Positions 4,018 through 35,118 of a DNA stretch of 43,243 bases are shown piece after piece. The notes under the pieces were generated by a model that saw only the letters and a program-made list of their open reading frames with translations, was not told the origin of the DNA and searched no databases. Made by a program: the position numbers and the translations under genes. This DNA comes from Bacteroidaceae bacterium (GTDB lineage: Bacteria > Bacteroidota > Bacteroidia > Bacteroidales > Bacteroidaceae): positions 1 to 43,243 of the forward strand of contig JAGCGS010000009.1 in NCBI GenBank assembly GCA_017649485.1. Direction: 5' to 3'. Numbering within the stretch: position 1 is the first letter of the stretch; each line of letters begins with the position of its first letter.

Positions 4018-4122
4018 TCAATTTTCAATCGTCAATGGTCAATTGTCAATCTTCAATTTTCAATCGTCAATGGTCAATCTTCAATCTTCAATGGTCAATC
4101 TTCAATTTTCAATTTTCAATTG
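4018..4122. repeat. TCAATNN heptamer array, 15 units
   Basis: Fifteen contiguous 7-bp units, each TCAAT plus CT, GG, TT, CG or TG, with no indels from 4018 to 4122. The last three units overlap the 3' end of the minus-strand hydrolase gene: its TGA stop (4102-4104) is the complement of the TCA opening the thirteenth unit, and its last six residues (QLKIEN) are encoded by the array. Confidence 0.9.
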
Positions 4123-18866: not shown

Positions 18867-19976
18867 TCAATGGTTTTTTATCAGTACTGTCAATTGTAAT
18901 ATAAGGTCGAAGAACACCATCTTCGCATTTACATTCTGCTCAATATGCACCTCCGCCTCTTGGAGCTCATGCATGATGCCTATGGCATTCCGTTCACTCA
19001 CAAAAGGAGCGAAACGGCTTGAGAACTGCAACTCCTGCGCGTTCATGTAATTCAACTCAGGCCTATGCAGGTTAGCCGTAAAATTCTCCCTGATCATCCT
19101 ACTGGCATATTGCAGGAAGTCTTTTTGCCGTTCCCTTCCCAAGGATGCCATTTCCTCGCTCCAGGACTTCATCTCTTTTACCTTTCGGCTCCAAGCCAAT
19201 CGCATCAACGATGTGAAGTGGTTGAACATCTCCTCATTGTTGCCTCCTGCGGTGATAGCTTCCAATGCCTTAATATAGTTGCCATTTGCCATGTGAGCTA
19301 TCACTTGACTCTCCTTGGCTTCGATGCCCATCCGTTCTTGTAAGGCAAGACTGATGTCTTTGTCCGTCAGGCGAGGCATGTCTATGCGTTGGGCTCTACT
19401 CATGATGGTTCCCAGCATCTTCTGAGGCTCCTCACTTACCAGCAGGAACAGTGTTTGTGCAGGTGGCTCTTCCAGCAGTTTCAACATCTTGTTGGCTCCT
19501 GCCTCCTGCATCTTCTCAGGTAACCAGATAATCACGATGCGCCATCCTCCCTGCACCGATTTCAAGCTCAGCTTTCGCTGTATATTGTCACTCTCACGCG
19601 AGTAGATCACGGGTTGAGCGTTCTCCACCTCCATGAGTCTGGTCCAGTCGTTATAACTGAAATAAGGGTTTCTCAACACCATCTCCCTCCAAGCTGTTAT
19701 CCAATCGTCGCAAGTTTCTTTTTTCCTTGTCTTGCTTGCCAGGATGGGGAAGATAAAATGCACATCGGGGTGCATCAGCTGATCCCATTGACGATTCGAT
19801 ATCTCTCCCTTAGGGCCAGTGCAACTGACGTACTTCGCCAAAGCCAATGCCATCGGCATCTTGCCACAACCCTCTGGACCAGCCAGTAACAAAGCGTGGG
19901 GTAAGCGACCGGCATCTGCCTCACTCATCAGCCGTTGTTTCACAGCCTCTTGCCCTATGACATCCTCAATCTTCAA
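18867..19976 (-). CDS. holB: DNA polymerase III delta' subunit (HolB-like)
   Basis: A 369-residue AAA+ clamp-loader subunit. It begins DVIGQEAVKQRLMSEADAGRL; a P-loop-like GPEGCGK lies at about 34-40 and NKMLKLLEEPP in the middle, followed by IMSRAQRID. Delta' loads the sliding clamp with delta and DnaX. The start is odd: no in-frame ATG gives a full N-terminus. TTG at 19974-19976 lies inside the heptamer array, and the array puts an in-frame TGA two codons upstream. Initiation at this TTG is the best reading; the next ATG (residue 17) would delete the DVIGQE motif. The stop lies three bases before the ricT ATG. Confidence 0.88.
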   Translation of the reverse strand: MKIEDVIGQEAVKQRLMSEADAGRLPHALLLAGPEGCGKMPMALALAKYVSCTGPKGEISNRQWDQLMHPDVHFIFPILASKTRKKETCDDWITAWREMVLRNPYFSYNDWTRLMEVENAQPVIYSRESDNIQRKLSLKSVQGGWRIVIIWLPEKMQEAGANKMLKLLEEPPAQTLFLLVSEEPQKMLGTIMSRAQRIDMPRLTDKDISLALQERMGIEAKESQVIAHMANGNYIKALEAITAGGNNEEMFNHFTSLMRLAWSRKVKEMKSWSEEMASLGRERQKDFLQYASRMIRENFTANLHRPELNYMNAQELQFSSRFAPFVSERNAIGIMHELQEAEVHIEQNVNAKMVFFDLILQLTVLIKNH

Positions 19977-20077
19977 TCTTCAATCTTCAATGGTCAATGG
20001 TCAATGGTCAATCTTCAATCTTCAATCTTCAATCTTCAATGGTCAATGGTCAATCTTCAATCTTCAATCTTCAATCT
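19966..20077. repeat. TCAATNN heptamer array between metF and holB, 16 units
   Basis: Sixteen gapless 7-bp units, only TCAATCT or TCAATGG, in the order 3 CT, 3 GG, 4 CT, 2 GG, 4 CT. It fills the whole metF-holB gap: the metF TGA is at the distal end (20077-20079) and the first four codons of holB fall in the proximal end. On plus the array is open in all frames (S-I-F-N-L-Q-S repeat); on minus, the sense strand here, it has TGA every 21 nt in every frame. Confidence 0.95.
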
Positions 20078-28872: not shown

Positions 28873-30213
28873 TTACTGTGTCAGCAGGTATGCCTTGAAG
28901 TCCTCGAAACGACTGGTCATATCAATGCTCTGCTTGGTGCCTTTCATGAACTCCTGCAGACGCTGGGGGATGGCAACGGGCTGACCGATGATGCCCTCAA
29001 CGGTGTCTTTGAACTTGGCAGGGTGGGCAGTCTCAATAAAGAAGCCTGTCTCACCTGGCTGCAAGCCTTCACGCAGGGCACGGTATCCGCAAGCACCGTG
29101 AGGATCGAGCAGATAGCCTGTGGTCTCATAAACACGGCGAATCTCATCGGCAATCTCATCGTTAGTGTAGGTGGCTCCGCTGATGTCCTGACAGATGGCT
29201 GAATGACTGCCATCGTAGAGCGCTAACACACGGGCAAAGTTGCTGGGGTCGCCCACATCCATGGCATTGGCGATGGTGGTGATGCTGGGGCGTGGGTTGT
29301 ATTGACCAGTCTGCAGGTAGTTGTAGAAGATGTCGTTGCGATTGTTAGCGGCTATGAAACGCTTGATGGGCAGTCCCATGCGCTTGCCGAACAAACCTGC
29401 GGTGATGTTGCCGAAGTTGCCAGACGGCACACAGCAAACGATTGAAGATGGAAGATTGAAGATGGAAGATTGTAAACTATTCCCTGCGGTTTCCTTTACA
29501 ATATTATAAAGTTGCGCTACTGCCCAGAAGTAGTAGAAGGCTTGGGGCAGGAAGCGTGCCACGTTGATGGAGTTGGCACTGGTGAGCTGCATGTGGGCAT
29601 TGAGCTCGGCATCCATGAAGGCTGTCTTTACCAGACGTTGGCAATCATCGAAGGTGCCATCCACCTCCAAGGCTGTGATGTTCTTGCCCAAGGTGGTGAA
29701 CTGCTTCTCTTGGATGAGGCTCACCTTGCCTTTGGGATAGAGCACATAGACATGGATGCCCTCTACGCCTAAGAAACCATTGGCTACTGCGCTGCCTGTG
29801 TCGCCTGAAGTGGCAACTAATACGTTGACCGTCGAACGTTGACCAGTAACAAAGTGGCCAAGCATACGTGCCATAAAGCGGGCACCAACGTCTTTGAAGG
29901 CGAGGGTGGGGCCATGGAACAGTTCGAGGGAATAGATATTGTCGGATACCTTCACCAAAGGGATGTCGAAGTTCATGGTGTCATAAACGATCTGCTTCAA
30001 CTTGTCGGCAGGTATGTCTTCGCCAAAGAAGGCTTGGGCTACTGCATAAGCCACTTCTTGCAGGCTCATGGTTGACATATTATCAAAGAAGGATGCTGGC
30101 AAGGCGTTGATGCGCTCGGGCATAAACAAACCCTTGTCGGCAGCAAGTCCTTTTACCACTGCATCCTGCAGGGTAACATCGGGGGTTTGGTGATTGGTAC
30201 TATAGTATTTCAT
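28873..30213 (-). CDS. thrC: Threonine synthase
   Basis: A 446-residue PLP enzyme making threonine from O-phosphohomoserine. PLP lysine is K107 in GPTLAFKDVGARF, with ATSGDTGSAVANGF and CVPSGNFGNITAG as phosphate- and cofactor-binding loops. A 12-residue insertion, LQSSIFNLPSSI (about 247-258), lies just before the VCCVPSGNFGN strand and is encoded by a five-unit heptamer array; the frame stays open and motifs on both sides are intact. It is the last gene of the thrA/apgM-type/thrC set; about 30 bp separates it from the preceding gene. Confidence 0.96.
   Translation of the reverse strand: MKYYSTNHQTPDVTLQDAVVKGLAADKGLFMPERINALPASFFDNMSTMSLQEVAYAVAQAFFGEDIPADKLKQIVYDTMNFDIPLVKVSDNIYSLELFHGPTLAFKDVGARFMARMLGHFVTGQRSTVNVLVATSGDTGSAVANGFLGVEGIHVYVLYPKGKVSLIQEKQFTTLGKNITALEVDGTFDDCQRLVKTAFMDAELNAHMQLTSANSINVARFLPQAFYYFWAVAQLYNIVKETAGNSLQSSIFNLPSSIVCCVPSGNFGNITAGLFGKRMGLPIKRFIAANNRNDIFYNYLQTGQYNPRPSITTIANAMDVGDPSNFARVLALYDGSHSAICQDISGATYTNDEIADEIRRVYETTGYLLDPHGACGYRALREGLQPGETGFFIETAHPAKFKDTVEGIIGQPVAIPQRLQEFMKGTKQSIDMTSRFEDFKAYLLTQ
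29439..29473. repeat. Heptamer array inside thrC, 5 units
   Basis: Five 7-bp units read on the coding (minus) strand as ACAATCT, TCCATCT, TCAATCT, TCCATCT, TCAATCG. The coding strand here carries the TCAATCT sense, which has no stop codon in any frame, opposite to the intergenic arrays near other minus-strand genes. It encodes residues 247-258 of threonine synthase. Confidence 0.85.
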
Positions 30214-30244
30214 AAGATTTGAGTTTCAAGTTCCAAGTTTCAAG

Positions 30245-31507
30245 TTATTCGTTGATGGCCATCAGTTCGTTCATAAACTCCTGGTATTTCAACAGGCCGT
30301 AGCTGCCATTAACGCAACTCACCTCGTCGAACGCTTGCACCTGGTCTGGCTCGATGCCTGGGTGCCAGAAGAGGAAAGGTACGGGCTCTGCCACGTGGAT
30401 GCGCAACTCAACTGGCGTGGGGTGATCGGGTAAGACGGCTATGCACACAGGTTCGTCTATGTGCTGAACAGCCTCGTAGATGGGCGCCACAATGCGACGG
30501 TCGAAATCTTCGATGGTTCGGATTTTCAAGTCCAGGTCGCCATCATGACCTGCTTCGTCGCTTGCCTCTACATGCACGAACACGAAGTCGTCGCGTCGCA
30601 AAGCCTCGATGGCTGCTTGTGCCTTGCCTTCGTAGTTAGTGTTAGCCAAGCCAGTTGCTCCTTCTACGGGGATGCTCTGCAGACCTGCATATCGTCCAAT
30701 GCCCTTGATGAGATCAACAGCAGATATGACATCGCCTCGCTTGATTTGCGGATACATCTCCATAAGGGTTTGCATCTGAGGGCGGTAGCCTCCGCTCCAA
30801 GGCCAGATGGAGTTAGCAGGGTCTTTGCCTTGCTTTACTCGCTCAATGTTGAAGGGGTGTTGGGCAAGAAGTTCTTGGGATTTCAGAATCAGCTCGATAA
30901 GTAAGCTTGCCGTCTGTTCCGCACTATAATGATCAATGGTCAATGGTAAATCGTCAATGGTCAATGGTGAATCGTCAATCGCTTTTGGCAATAAGGATCG
31001 CCAATCTTCGCCTGGATGGTCATGGGGTGGGGCGCAGTCAACATACTTATTGCCGCCCTTGATGACCAGCAGGTGGCGGTATTGGATGCCAGTGATAAAC
31101 TGGATATGGTCATTGCCCAAGTGCTGGTTGAGGTACTTGATAAGCACATCGCCCTGCTCGGTGGTGAGGTGACCGCCATGATGGTTCTTAATCTTGCCAT
31201 CAGCCAAAGTGATGATGTTGCAGCGTATGGCCAGGTCGCCAGGTTGCATCTCGTAGCCGATGGAGGCAGCCTCCAACGGTCCGCGTCCCTCAAACACCTT
31301 GTTCATGTCATAGCCGAGGATGGTGGTATTCGCCACTTCAGAGCCAGGACTAAAGCCTTCGGGCACGGTGAGCAACCTGCCACAACGCCCTGCTTTGGCA
31401 AGTTGATCCATAACAGGGGTGTTAGCATATTGCAACAAGGTCTTACCACCCAGTCGCTCTACTGAATGGTCAGCCATGCCATCACCTAATAATATAATAT
31501 GTTTCAT
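30245..31507 (-). CDS. ApgM-type phosphoglycerate mutase homologue, proposed homoserine kinase
   Basis: A 420-residue alkaline-phosphatase-superfamily protein of the archaeal-type cofactor-independent phosphoglycerate mutase family. It starts MKHIILLGDGMAD with metal-binding D9, then PGSEVANTTILGYD (nucleophile serine S56), FEGRGPLEAASIG, HVEASDEAGHDGD and AVLPDHPTP. Its place between thrA and thrC, with no thrB, fits the TIGRFAM 'proposed homoserine kinase' group, so it probably phosphorylates homoserine. The ATG at 31507 is chosen; upstream codons are heptamer sequence. A loop insert AIDDSPLTIDDLPLTID (about 176-192) is encoded by a heptamer array. Confidence 0.88.
   Translation of the reverse strand: MKHIILLGDGMADHSVERLGGKTLLQYANTPVMDQLAKAGRCGRLLTVPEGFSPGSEVANTTILGYDMNKVFEGRGPLEAASIGYEMQPGDLAIRCNIITLADGKIKNHHGGHLTTEQGDVLIKYLNQHLGNDHIQFITGIQYRHLLVIKGGNKYVDCAPPHDHPGEDWRSLLPKAIDDSPLTIDDLPLTIDHYSAEQTASLLIELILKSQELLAQHPFNIERVKQGKDPANSIWPWSGGYRPQMQTLMEMYPQIKRGDVISAVDLIKGIGRYAGLQSIPVEGATGLANTNYEGKAQAAIEALRRDDFVFVHVEASDEAGHDGDLDLKIRTIEDFDRRIVAPIYEAVQHIDEPVCIAVLPDHPTPVELRIHVAEPVPFLFWHPGIEPDQVQAFDEVSCVNGSYGLLKYQEFMNELMAINE
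30933..30981. repeat. Heptamer array inside the apgM-type gene, 7 units
   Basis: Plus-strand units are TCAATGG, TCAATGG, TAAATCG, TCAATGG, TCAATGG, TGAATCG, TCAATCG. The gene reads the opposite strand, where a consensus unit ends in TGA. In this frame only the third and sixth units would give an in-frame TGA, and only those two deviate, giving TTA (Leu187) and TCA (Ser180) instead. Confidence 0.92.
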
Positions 31508-31517
31508 AAATTGCAGC

Positions 31518-31566
31518 TCAATGGTCAACAGTCAATGGTCAATGGTCAATGGTCAATAGTCAACCG
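31518..31566. repeat. Heptamer array between thrA and the apgM-type gene, 7 units
   Basis: Units TCAATGG, TCAACAG, TCAATGG (three times), TCAATAG, TCAACCG run without gaps. The next position in phase, 31567-31569, is TCA, the complement of the thrA TGA stop. The array thus fills the gap exactly from the thrA stop to just before the following ATG at 31507. Confidence 0.9.
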
Positions 31567-33999
31567 TCATACATTCGCTATTGACATAATATCTGCAAAG
31601 ACACCAGCGGCTGTAACACTGGCACCAGCGCCATAACCCTGAATCATCATAGGATATTCGTGGTAGCGCTCGGTGGTGAGCAGGATGATGTTATTGCTGC
31701 TCTCCAAGCTATAGAACGGATGGTTGTTAGCCACCTCCTCCAGTCCTACAGTTGCCTTGCCCTCATTAAGCCTTGCCACGAAACGCCAGCGTTTGTTCTG
31801 TTTCGCCAATGTCTGTCGGCGAGCCTCGAACTCAGCATCCAACTCGGGGATGCGTTTCCAGAAGTCATCCAATGACCCAGCCATCAACTCGTCCGGGATA
31901 AACAAGTGCTTCTCCACATCCTCTTGGTCGAGGCGATAGCCAGCCTCACGCCCTAAGATTACCAGCTTGCGAATCACATCCTTGCCACTGAGGTCGGTGC
32001 GTGGGTCAGGTTCAGAGAGACCCTTCTGCTTAGCCTCTGTAATGGCTTGGCTCAGGCTGGTTTCAGCACTCAGGGAATTGAAAATATAGTTCAATGTGCC
32101 ACTCAGTACGGCTTCGATCTTCAAAATCTTATCGCCGCTATGGATCAGGTCGTTAATCGTATTGATGATGGGCAAGCCCGCGCCTACGTTAGTCTCGAAG
32201 AGGAACTTAACCCCACGTCGGTGGGCTGTCTGCTTCAGACGCATATAATTCTCGTAAGGTGATGAAGCGGCAATCTTATTGGCAGCCACTACAGACACGT
32301 TGTGTTGCAGAAGTTGCTCGTACAGTGCTGCTACTCCACTGTTGGCAGTACAGTCAACAAACACAGCATTGAAGATGTTCATTCCAGTCACTTCTTCCAA
32401 CAGACCGTTCAAGTCACAGTCCTTGCCCTTCTCCAATAGTTCACGCTTATAATCCTTGAGGTTGATTCCCTCGCGGGTAAATAAGCCCTTCTTGCTGTTG
32501 GCAATACCCACCACATTCAACTGCAGGCCATTCTCACGCATCAGTTTCTCACGCTGACTCTCAATCTGTGTGATGAGGCTGTGTCCCACTGTGCCGATGC
32601 CGCAGATAAAGAGGTTCAGTACCTGGTATTCTGACAGGAAGAATGAGTCGTGTATCACGTTCAGCGACTTCCTCAGCAATTTCTTGTTTACCACGAATGA
32701 GATGTTCGTCTCGCTGGCACCCTGGGCACAAGCGATGACACTGATACCGCTTCGTCCCAAAGCACCGAACAACTTACCCGCGATGCCAGGGGTATGCTTC
32801 ATGTTCTCACCCACGATAGCCACTGTGGCCAAGCCATATTCCGCTTTCATGGGGACCATCTCACCCATCTCTATCTCTTTGCTGAACTCCATGTTCAGCA
32901 CATCGCAAGCCGTCACCGCATCGGCAGTTCGCACACCAATGGAGGTTGAGTTCTCACTGGATGCCTGGCTCACCATGAACACACTGATGCCATGCTCTGC
33001 CAGGGTACTGAAGATGCGGCGGTTAACACCAATCACACCCACCATGCCCAAGCCTTGTACGGTGATGAGGCATGTGTCGTCGATGCTACTGATACCCTTG
33101 ATAGCCTTGCCGCTACCATTGGCAGTGCCTTGACGTATAATGGTGCCTTTGGCTTCAGGGTTGAAAGTATTCTTGATTAAAATAGGTATGTTCTTATGAT
33201 AAACCGGCCAGATGGTAGGTGGATAAACCACCTTGGCACCGAAATTACAGAGTTCGGTAGCTTCCACGTAAGTCAGACTTGTGATGGTATAGGCACTGTG
33301 GATAACACGGGGGTCAGCAGTCATGAAACCATCTACATCCGTCCAGATCTCCAGGCTTTCAGCATTCAAGGCAGCAGCCACGATGGCTGCGGTATAGTCA
33401 CTACCACCACGTCCAAGGTTTGTAACCTCACCTGTGTTCTTGTCTGTAGCTATGAATCCTGGGATGAGGGTCAGCTTGGGCAGGTCGGTCAGTTGCTCCT
33501 TCACCAATTGGTTTGTCAGTTCGGCGTTCAGAATGTGTTTGCCTTGCTTGCGCTCTGTCTTGATAAACAGTCGGGAGTCCTTCCACAGTGCACCTGTTAC
33601 TTCAGCAACGATGAGACTGGAGAGGCGTTCGCCATAGCTCAGGATGGTATCATTGGTCTTACGGCTCAGATCCTTGATGAGGTAAATGCCCTGGAAGATG
33701 TCGCGCAATTCGCCCAACAACTGTTCCACCTGTGCCATCAAAGCGTCAAAACGTGTACCCTTGGCTATGTTGTCGTTGATTAAATCATAATGTCTCTGCA
33801 TCAGATCGGCCAGATCTTCCTCATAAGCCTTGTTGCCTTCAGAGGCCATCTTTGCGGTCTTGATAAGTTGGTCGGTCACACCTCCAAGGGCTGAAACCAC
33901 CACGATGACTTGACCTTGCTGATTCGCCACAATCTGTTTGACGTTCCTGATGCTCGCGGTGGTACCTACGGATGAACCACCGAATTTCAATACTTTCAT
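31567..33999 (-). CDS. thrA: Bifunctional aspartokinase/homoserine dehydrogenase
   Basis: An 810-residue fusion catalysing the first and third steps of threonine synthesis from aspartate. The aspartokinase domain starts MKVLKFGGSSVGT and has FIATDKNTGEVTNLGRGGSD. Two ACT-type regulatory repeats lie at about 320-460, with LITVQGLGMVGVIGVNRRIF and TVAIVGENMKHTPGIAGKLF. The dehydrogenase begins near 465 with LFICGIGTVGHSL and includes VDCTANSGVA, VVAANK, NVGAGLPII and SGTLNYIFNSL. Feedback inhibition by threonine is expected. The ATG at 33999 is the family start; an upstream open stretch to 34656 runs antisense through the asparaginase gene and is rejected. First gene of the threonine operon; a TAATTTTG -7-like box (complement of 34024-34031) precedes it. 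Confidence 0.96.
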   Translation of the reverse strand: MKVLKFGGSSVGTTASIRNVKQIVANQQGQVIVVVSALGGVTDQLIKTAKMASEGNKAYEEDLADLMQRHYDLINDNIAKGTRFDALMAQVEQLLGELRDIFQGIYLIKDLSRKTNDTILSYGERLSSLIVAEVTGALWKDSRLFIKTERKQGKHILNAELTNQLVKEQLTDLPKLTLIPGFIATDKNTGEVTNLGRGGSDYTAAIVAAALNAESLEIWTDVDGFMTADPRVIHSAYTITSLTYVEATELCNFGAKVVYPPTIWPVYHKNIPILIKNTFNPEAKGTIIRQGTANGSGKAIKGISSIDDTCLITVQGLGMVGVIGVNRRIFSTLAEHGISVFMVSQASSENSTSIGVRTADAVTACDVLNMEFSKEIEMGEMVPMKAEYGLATVAIVGENMKHTPGIAGKLFGALGRSGISVIACAQGASETNISFVVNKKLLRKSLNVIHDSFFLSEYQVLNLFICGIGTVGHSLITQIESQREKLMRENGLQLNVVGIANSKKGLFTREGINLKDYKRELLEKGKDCDLNGLLEEVTGMNIFNAVFVDCTANSGVAALYEQLLQHNVSVVAANKIAASSPYENYMRLKQTAHRRGVKFLFETNVGAGLPIINTINDLIHSGDKILKIEAVLSGTLNYIFNSLSAETSLSQAITEAKQKGLSEPDPRTDLSGKDVIRKLVILGREAGYRLDQEDVEKHLFIPDELMAGSLDDFWKRIPELDAEFEARRQTLAKQNKRWRFVARLNEGKATVGLEEVANNHPFYSLESSNNIILLTTERYHEYPMMIQGYGAGASVTAAGVFADIMSIANV

Positions 34000-34071
34000 C
34001 TGCTTATTCTTTATAATTTGGCGCAAAATTACAAAAATATTTGTATATTCGCAGCCAAATGGGAGATATTT

Positions 34072-35118
34072 ATGAGAACAGAAACTGATAACACATCTAT
34101 TTTGCTTGTCTATACAGGGGGTACCATTGGTATGATTGAAAATCCTGTGACTGGTGCTTTGGAGAACTTCAGTTTTGCGCAACTCAAGAAACATGTGCCG
34201 GAACTGCAGAAATTTGCCTTCCATATTGATAGCTGTCAGTTCGATAAGCCTATGGATTCTTCTGATATGGATGCCAAGGCTTGGCGAAGGCTGGTGGATA
34301 TCATAGTGAAGAACTACGACAAATATACCGGTTTTGTGGTGCTGCATGGCACCGACACGATGGCTTTCACAGCTTCTGCATTGAGTTTCATGCTGCGCGG
34401 TTTGACGAAGCCCGTCATCCTGACTGGGTCGCAGTTGCCCATCGGCGTGATTCGCACAGATGGCAAGGAGAACTTGCTGACGAGTCTGGAAATAGCCGCT
34501 GCTCAACGACCTGACGGAGAGCCAATGGTGCAGGAAGTGTGTGTGTATTTTGAGAATAAGCTGATGCGAGGCAACCGCACCACGAAGCTGAATGCTGAGG
34601 ATTTCAACGCTTTCCGTTCTTATAACTATCCTGATTTGGCGACTGTGGGCATACACATCAAGTATAATCTAAATGCCATTCATTACGAGAAGGTGAAAGT
34701 GCCGTTGGAGGTACAGACGGAGATGAATACAAGTGTGGCTATCTTGAAGCTTTTCCCTGGCATTCAGGAAACAGTGGTTCGCTCGGTATTGTCGATTTCC
34801 GGTCTGAAGGGAGTGGTGTTGGAAACATACGGCAGTGGTAACGCGCCCCGTAAAGGATGGCTCATCGATTGCCTGAGCCAGGCTTCTCGTCGTGGGATGG
34901 TGATTGTGAATGTGACTCAATGCAAGAGTGGTATGGTGGATATGGACAGGTATGAGACTGGCTATCAACTGAAGTCCGCCGGGGTGTTGAGTGGCTATGA
35001 CATCACCACAGAAGCCGCCCTGACGAAGCTGATGTTCCTCTTCGGACAAGGTCTCTCCGTCGAAGAAGTGCGTGAGGGTATGATGCACTCGTTAGTGGGT
35101 GAAATCTCGACAGTTTAG
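34072..35118 (+). CDS. ansA: Type I L-asparaginase
   Basis: A 348-residue cytosolic enzyme hydrolysing asparagine to aspartate and ammonia. The first catalytic threonine is T18 in VYTGGTIGM; the second set is HGTDTMAFTAS with T94-D95; RGNRTTKLNAEDFNAFRS follows, with the family lysine. No signal peptide is present, so type I rather than periplasmic type II. The start ATG 34072 is after a TATATTCG -7-like box at 34044-34051. It is divergent from thrA across a 72-bp gap, so aspartate release and aspartate-family synthesis genes share a control region. Its stop overlaps the convergent lipoprotein stop by four bases. Confidence 0.94.
   Translation: MRTETDNTSILLVYTGGTIGMIENPVTGALENFSFAQLKKHVPELQKFAFHIDSCQFDKPMDSSDMDAKAWRRLVDIIVKNYDKYTGFVVLHGTDTMAFTASALSFMLRGLTKPVILTGSQLPIGVIRTDGKENLLTSLEIAAAQRPDGEPMVQEVCVYFENKLMRGNRTTKLNAEDFNAFRSYNYPDLATVGIHIKYNLNAIHYEKVKVPLEVQTEMNTSVAILKLFPGIQETVVRSVLSISGLKGVVLETYGSGNAPRKGWLIDCLSQASRRGMVIVNVTQCKSGMVDMDRYETGYQLKSAGVLSGYDITTEAALTKLMFLFGQGLSVEEVREGMMHSLVGEISTV

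Follow-up and report, generated by a model that had tools for sequence, protein, structure and literature searches.

Results and Discussion

The threonine locus and its heptamer arrays

The window, i.e., the whole stretch of 43,243 nucleotides which was analysed, contains on its minus strand a thrB2-type gene (30248..31507), with thrC for threonine synthase downstream (28873..30213, minus strand; TIGR00260, 299.3 bits). The open reading frame upstream (31567..34656, minus strand) is listed too long, its true start being internal, and is presumably of the thrA type (aspartokinase/homoserine dehydrogenase), judging from its sequence; an ORF of this type was found by tblastn next to thrB2 in the loci of seven relatives. 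Searches with protein profiles gave 529.5 bits for the thrB2-type product with TIGR02535 ("proposed homoserine kinase", cut-off 446.3), 544.5 bits with NF003242 (cofactor-independent PGM, cut-off 426) and 496.6 bits with TIGR00306 (cut-off 320). Since all three cut-offs were passed, ThrB2 and PGM cannot be told apart by the profiles alone. Passages in two published studies use the name ThrB2 for this family and describe BT2402 of B. thetaiotaomicron as required in minimal medium unless threonine is supplied (PMC7311316, PMC9026213); its activity, the formation of O-phosphohomoserine, is left uncertain by its authors in the relevant passage (PMC7311316). The window gene resembles the BT2402 family (TIGR02535) in its gene family and in its neighbourhood of threonine genes, and differs from it by a heptamer insert. 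The family score, the thrC/thrA context and the reports on BT2402 make a glycolytic role less likely; judged by sequence, this gene probably encodes ThrB2 and not a glycolytic mutase. The designation "apgM-type" in the original prediction should thus probably be replaced by thrB2, in view of the TIGR02535 score and the neighbouring thrC.

The insert (30933..30981, minus strand) consists of seven units, which read on the plus strand TCAATGG, TCAATGG, TAAATCG, TCAATGG, TCAATGG, TGAATCG and TCAATCG, five of them with an exact TCAAT. It encodes AIDDSPLTIDDLPLTID, so that the protein reads LLPK-AIDDSPLTIDDLPLTIDHYS-AEQTA at this position. Every consensus heptamer ends in TGA when read on the strand of the gene; the two units which would place this triplet in frame, the second and the fifth, carry TCA (30968-30970) and TTA (30947-30949), and the remaining five have kept TGA out of frame. 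Coordinates and bases, as originally described, were confirmed, the five out-of-frame TGA by reading unit by unit. The tandem TCAAT cores with their spacing of 7 bases assign the array to the TCAATNN family described below. Tandem Repeats Finder (TRF) reported positions 30933-30979 as a 21-bp repeat with 2.2 copies and 96% matches. From an alignment with the archaeal PGM 2zkt, which has a gap across part of the stretch, the array would be located in a loop.

Further arrays are present in the window. One lies within thrC (29439..29473, minus strand; TCAAT orientation, five units, two of them exact) and encodes ..SLQSSIFNLPSSI.., another of seven units occupies the thrA/thrB2 junction (31518..31566, plus strand), where the aligned flanks in the related genome G027 are 5 bases apart. 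Arrays of 15 units (4018..4122, plus strand) and 16 units (19966..20077, plus strand; 42-bp higher-order unit according to TRF) are situated at, and abutting, the 3' ends of called genes, respectively. A different 7-base array was noticed between thrB2 and thrC (30222-30246; 3.6 copies of AGTTTCA by TRF).

A dispersed repeat family

In the following, G000 denotes the genome of the window, and G013 and similar labels denote related genomes. The closest named relatives were uncultured Bacteroidaceae or Bacteroidales assemblies, several of them labelled as originating from rumen or omasum (e.g., RUI513, RUG12436, RGIG6796). The pattern CAATNNTCAATNNTCAAT, comprising three units, had 467 overlapping matches (249 + 218) in the 2.6-Mb assembly G000, the reversed pattern a single one. 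At least one match occurred in 82 of the 119 genomes of the "genus" as defined by the tool, G000 included, and more than 100 in six genomes: G000 (467), G013 (353), G006 (310), G058 (228), G154 (199) and G023 (172), with at most 7 matches of the reversed control in these six. The repeat origin of the thrB2 insert, which had been proposed originally, is supported by the 467 matches versus one, together with the array-free orthologues in G027, G008, G006 and G058; a chance likeness to a repeat was ruled out by the same counts and the comparison of orthologues. The reversed control was frequent in four other genomes (G045, 92; G056, 99; G031, 52; G118, 46), perhaps due to another dispersed repeat.

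A tolerant scan of 1,093,346 bases of G000 (42% of the assembly, including the window) detected 93 arrays, versus 2 in the reversed sequence: 46 at gene edges, 29 intergenic and 18 within called ORFs. This sample was not random, as some contigs were chosen for having matches and others by number; it covered 219 of the 467 matches. In 400,000 bases of G013, 21 arrays were found, 10 of them in ORFs, and none in the control. ORFs were called with a home-made program (codon score, longest start). Rfam searches with seven sources returned one tRNA and nothing else.

Orthologues and history of the thrB2 array

The orthologue from G013 contains an array at the same site: its protein reads LLPK-PIDHSPLTIDHYP-ADETA, with four units, the second of which carries TCA, and is 21 bp, or exactly 7 amino acids, shorter than in G000. 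No array was present in thrB2 of G027 (AINSK), G008 (NVQS, with one TCAAT), G006 and G058, which together with the shorter array of G013 provides the orthologue comparison suggested with the original prediction. Among the ThrB2 stretches of 80 fetched relatives, the scan flagged an array only in that of G013. In a tree built after masking the arrays in five concatenated genes, G000 and G013 were sisters (97.3/97), followed by G027 and G008; sequences missing from this tree were thrC of G008, the FAD gene (see below) of G058, and the whole of hisDC together with the greater part of thrC of G023. The subclade was unresolved in a tree of ThrB2 only. A sequencing error as the source of TCA was rejected, as the separate assembly of G013 carries the identical triplet.

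Since G013 has the same TCA in an array shorter by 21 bp, and the next relatives are free of arrays, the loss of both stops is explained most simply by a single stop-free unit which was duplicated. The simplest history is a gain on the stem of G000 and G013, followed by a gain of 21 bp in G000 or a loss of 21 bp in G013; with one array and few lineages, independent gains in G000 and G013 are still conceivable. From the points observed directly (family membership, identical site, common TCA, 21-bp difference and array-free near relatives), we infer the order of events and the neutrality of the peptide as follows. A short array from the genome's own dispersed TCAATNN/NNATTGA family would have been gained once, in the common ancestor of G000 and G013, at a ThrB2 loop of variable length. 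It could have survived because its sole unit in stop phase was TCA (or TTA), either at arrival or through an early mutation. In the lineage of G000 a block of three units (21 bp) would then have been duplicated, whereby the frame was kept and the stop-free unit copied; a later single C/T change would have left one copy with TCA and the other with TTA. Selection would have acted as a filter on stops and frame, and the peptide itself is probably a tolerated filler. To this explanation as a whole (one gain, a stop-free unit, duplication of a 21-bp block, and a filter) we assign a probability of about 0.8. The 21-bp period with its 96% match agrees with such a duplication.

The original prediction implied that the gene had been invaded by an array of consensus units, two of them with TGA in frame, and that selection removed each stop separately. 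Both in-frame units are indeed without TGA and the other five with it, for which the chance within the array is 1 in C(7,2) = 21, given two changed units; this figure is worth less if both stop-free units are copies of one. However, G013 has the identical TCA with three units fewer, each of the two units of G000 belongs to one copy of a duplicated 21-bp block, and a gene with two stops would need to have stayed useful in between. Two independent losses of stops are therefore not supported, considering the TCA unit common to the sisters and the one extra 21-bp block of G000, and we regard separate removal as highly improbable.

That the array grew where it stands, through slippage on a native seed resembling the heptamer and with no insertion from outside, has more in its favour and is still rather unlikely. 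G027 bears GCTATTAACTCA at the thrB2 site, and the native second site in thrC is likewise similar to the heptamer; such seeds do not account for composite repeats with a conserved core, which occur in frame at differing sites of related species (see below), nor can one seed explain the thrB2 stretch of RUG12887, where two units of opposite orientation were recognised (KMVNGQST; by eye, below the scan threshold). At this site, G023 and G154 have an A-rich run in which a 7-base period is faintly visible (by eye), which suggests that the deeper history of the site may be less simple.

The distance between PPHD and the next conserved helix was 28-62 amino acids in the 69 of 80 relatives which were readable by motif; three of the other 11 were read separately. 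This wide variation of the stretch in length and sequence, and the absence of the array from the nearest relatives, speak against a peptide which is functional in itself and for whose coding content the array was retained. In its favour could be mentioned that three of five comparable in-ORF arrays are common to G000 and G013, versus one of nine other arrays of G000, but the difference gave only p = 0.095 in Fisher's test; a functional peptide appears very improbable to us. The same one of nine comparable non-ORF arrays with a counterpart in G013 indicates that turnover is fast. In the ThrB2 stretch of Prevotella RUG383, PPHD is followed by a run of heptamers of unrelated sequence (CACTCC plus one base).

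Selection or a filter on insertion

In 491 units from the 75 non-ORF arrays of G000, the triplet in stop phase was TGA in 427, TTA in 26, TAA in 21, TCA in 8 and others in 9 cases. The presence of TTA and TCA in non-ORF arrays means that stop-free units pre-exist. An array which starts at the stop codon of a gene and continues past it (G000:C2:23416-23506) shows TTA at intervals of three units, four times in all; duplication of blocks can thus yield the pattern without coding constraint. Four-unit windows were open in 76.3% of the frame-window pairs in the TCAAT orientation versus 7.0% in the other orientation. If insertion were blind to orientation and all broken genes were lost, 8.4% of the arrays in genes should be stop-bearing. 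Of 25 distinct in-ORF sites from the sampled parts of two genomes (18 in G000, plus 7 in G013 once three common sites had been removed), 23 had the stop-free orientation and 2 the stop-bearing one; expected were 2.1 with four-unit windows and 0.63 with seven-unit windows. These sites fall in 20 called genes and are not all independent, as some genes hold several, and the definition of an ORF itself excludes broken genes. The counts of orientation support a filter, with repair neither required nor excluded; as seven-unit windows predict just 0.63 of 25, some change after insertion is possible. That no stop is in frame is, moreover, already implied by an open gene. Of the purifying selection on a repeat invasion, which had been suggested originally, the filter on an intact gene can be retained, while the share of orientations equals that predicted by a filter on insertion alone.

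Arrays in other genes

The in-frame arrays in the 20 called genes of the two species (samples of G000 and G013) included thrC, the join of hisD and hisC domains, dihydroorotase, a DegT aminotransferase, a TamB protein, an ABC ATPase, a binding protein, and others. Family searches were run on 12 of the 14 array-bearing genes of G000 (all except C22:19375-21621 and C5:18932-21340), and on none of G013. Reading by eye, the stretch of thrC ahead of the conserved motif VPSGNFGN was seen to hold arrays with differing units in G000, G006, G013 and G154; that of G027 has no array. The gene for an FAD-dependent protein (G000:C10:135211-136908; PF21688) contains the second of the two stop-bearing arrays, with which a TCAAT array 84 bases further on is paired. 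Its in-frame units, read by eye, were GGA and TCA in G000, GGA and TGC in G023, and GGA and GAC in G154; in these three genomes, the three units around and between the in-frame ones retain an out-of-frame TGA (by eye). The stretch was recognisable in G027, G006 and G008, where some out-of-frame TGA are gone, and nearly all are gone in G013. Going by these sequences, it looks like an old insertion held open across the subclade, and would be the best hint of a continuing constraint.

Some other observations concern proteins with heptamer-coded parts. hisD and hisC form one ORF in G000 (L072:11975-14338) and in most of the relatives searched; the join is coded by heptamers in G000 and G013 (G013:C5:110491-112845), with different types of units. 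Heptamer-coded stretches similar to MVNGQWS end apparent signal peptides in three genes (L080:1807-2916, L128:12275-13024, G013:C29:26243-27124). Truncation of genes by arrays at their 3' ends was also considered and rejected: 10 of 30 such arrays had a match in the part of G027 searched, two of these were uninformative (21% and 28% identity), and the eight checkable cases (at least 75% identity) end within 0-4 amino acids of the G027 orthologue.

The array in thrB2 is a true but modest case, and the class of in-frame arrays the stronger story. It offers a testable case in which the survival in genes of a repeat whose length is not a multiple of three is set by orientation and frame, the length then changing in steps of 21 bases. 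Peptides coded by heptamers may mislead annotation and length-based comparison of genes in rumen Bacteroidota. Also, defined loci with empty sites are now at hand for studying the spread of heptamers.

Composite repeats and comparison with known systems

Dispersed heptamer repeats include, among others, the STRR of cyanobacteria. According to passages in the respective reports, GGGAATC heptamers of Xanthomonas and Nostoc are under-represented in coding regions (PMC4692102), and TAACTGA heptamers of Beggiatoaceae, Cyanobacteria and five Bacteroidetes are mostly found just upstream of starts (PMC4679880). The present family resembles GGGAATC, TAACTGA and STRR repeats in its tandem 7-base units, which are distributed genome-wide and often intergenic; it differs from the GGGAATC and TAACTGA heptamers in the sequence of the unit and in having arrays in frame in housekeeping genes. 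The TCAATNN family, or heptamers in genes of Bacteroidaceae, were not recognised in the literature searched, which comprised few subscription journals.

Among close pairs of arrays in the G000 sample, 8 of 11 had the order minus-then-plus and none of 11 plus-then-minus; the former layout recurred in 19 pieces, selected for showing it, from eight other genomes. With the core GCCGAGTCGCGACGAAATNGGA (up to 3 mismatches), 25 matches were obtained in G000, 32 in G013, 12 in G008, 6 in G006 and 6 in G027; G058, G023, G154 and G030 had no match. A similar scan of the G000 sample gave nine copies of the core, of which seven lie no more than 39 bases from an array. In thrC of G013 (G013:C13:666-2165), a composite repeat of core and arrays (ca. 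53 amino acids) is inserted in frame just before NVLVATSG, and this thrC is 53 residues longer than that of G000. The core is also in frame at the N-terminus of a G013 protein which we take to be hisB-like; the match in G000 begins at residue 39. Inverted pairs of heptamers around short cores were noted in several genomes (L299-L317), and some resemble terminator hairpins.

For Rickettsia palindromic elements, the source describes dispersed repeats in frame within unrelated (metabolic) protein genes, to which they add peptides (PMC10969869). The heptamer family as a whole shares the in-frame insertion in unrelated genes; these elements are palindromes of ca. 150 bp, whereas the unit here, in Bacteroidota, is a heptamer in tandem, which stands by itself or forms the arms on both sides of a core. 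The insert in thrB2 is a tandem array of 49 bp, and no further array lies within 150 bp of it; lacking a partner arm, it is not classed with them. Compared by description, these elements would be the nearest parallel, and membership is not claimed. Tentatively, and at somewhat less than even odds, a subclade of rumen Bacteroidaceae might possess a recently active (NNATTGA)n-core-(TCAATNN)n family, spreading through genomes and inserted repeatedly in frame in housekeeping enzymes, as a counterpart to the Rickettsia elements; that its arms are mostly open frames in one orientation would be part of this reading.

For detecting duplications of target sites, both flanks were found in the G027 part for 23 of the 93 arrays (27 rows, some arrays twice), and 12 could be aligned; flanking copies (AAGATGA) were seen by eye at one of these 12, C5:6594. 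There (G000:C5:6594-6621), the heptamer insert comprises ca. 31 bases and lies at the overlap of a stop and a start codon, with AAGATGA on either side, and both genes are open.
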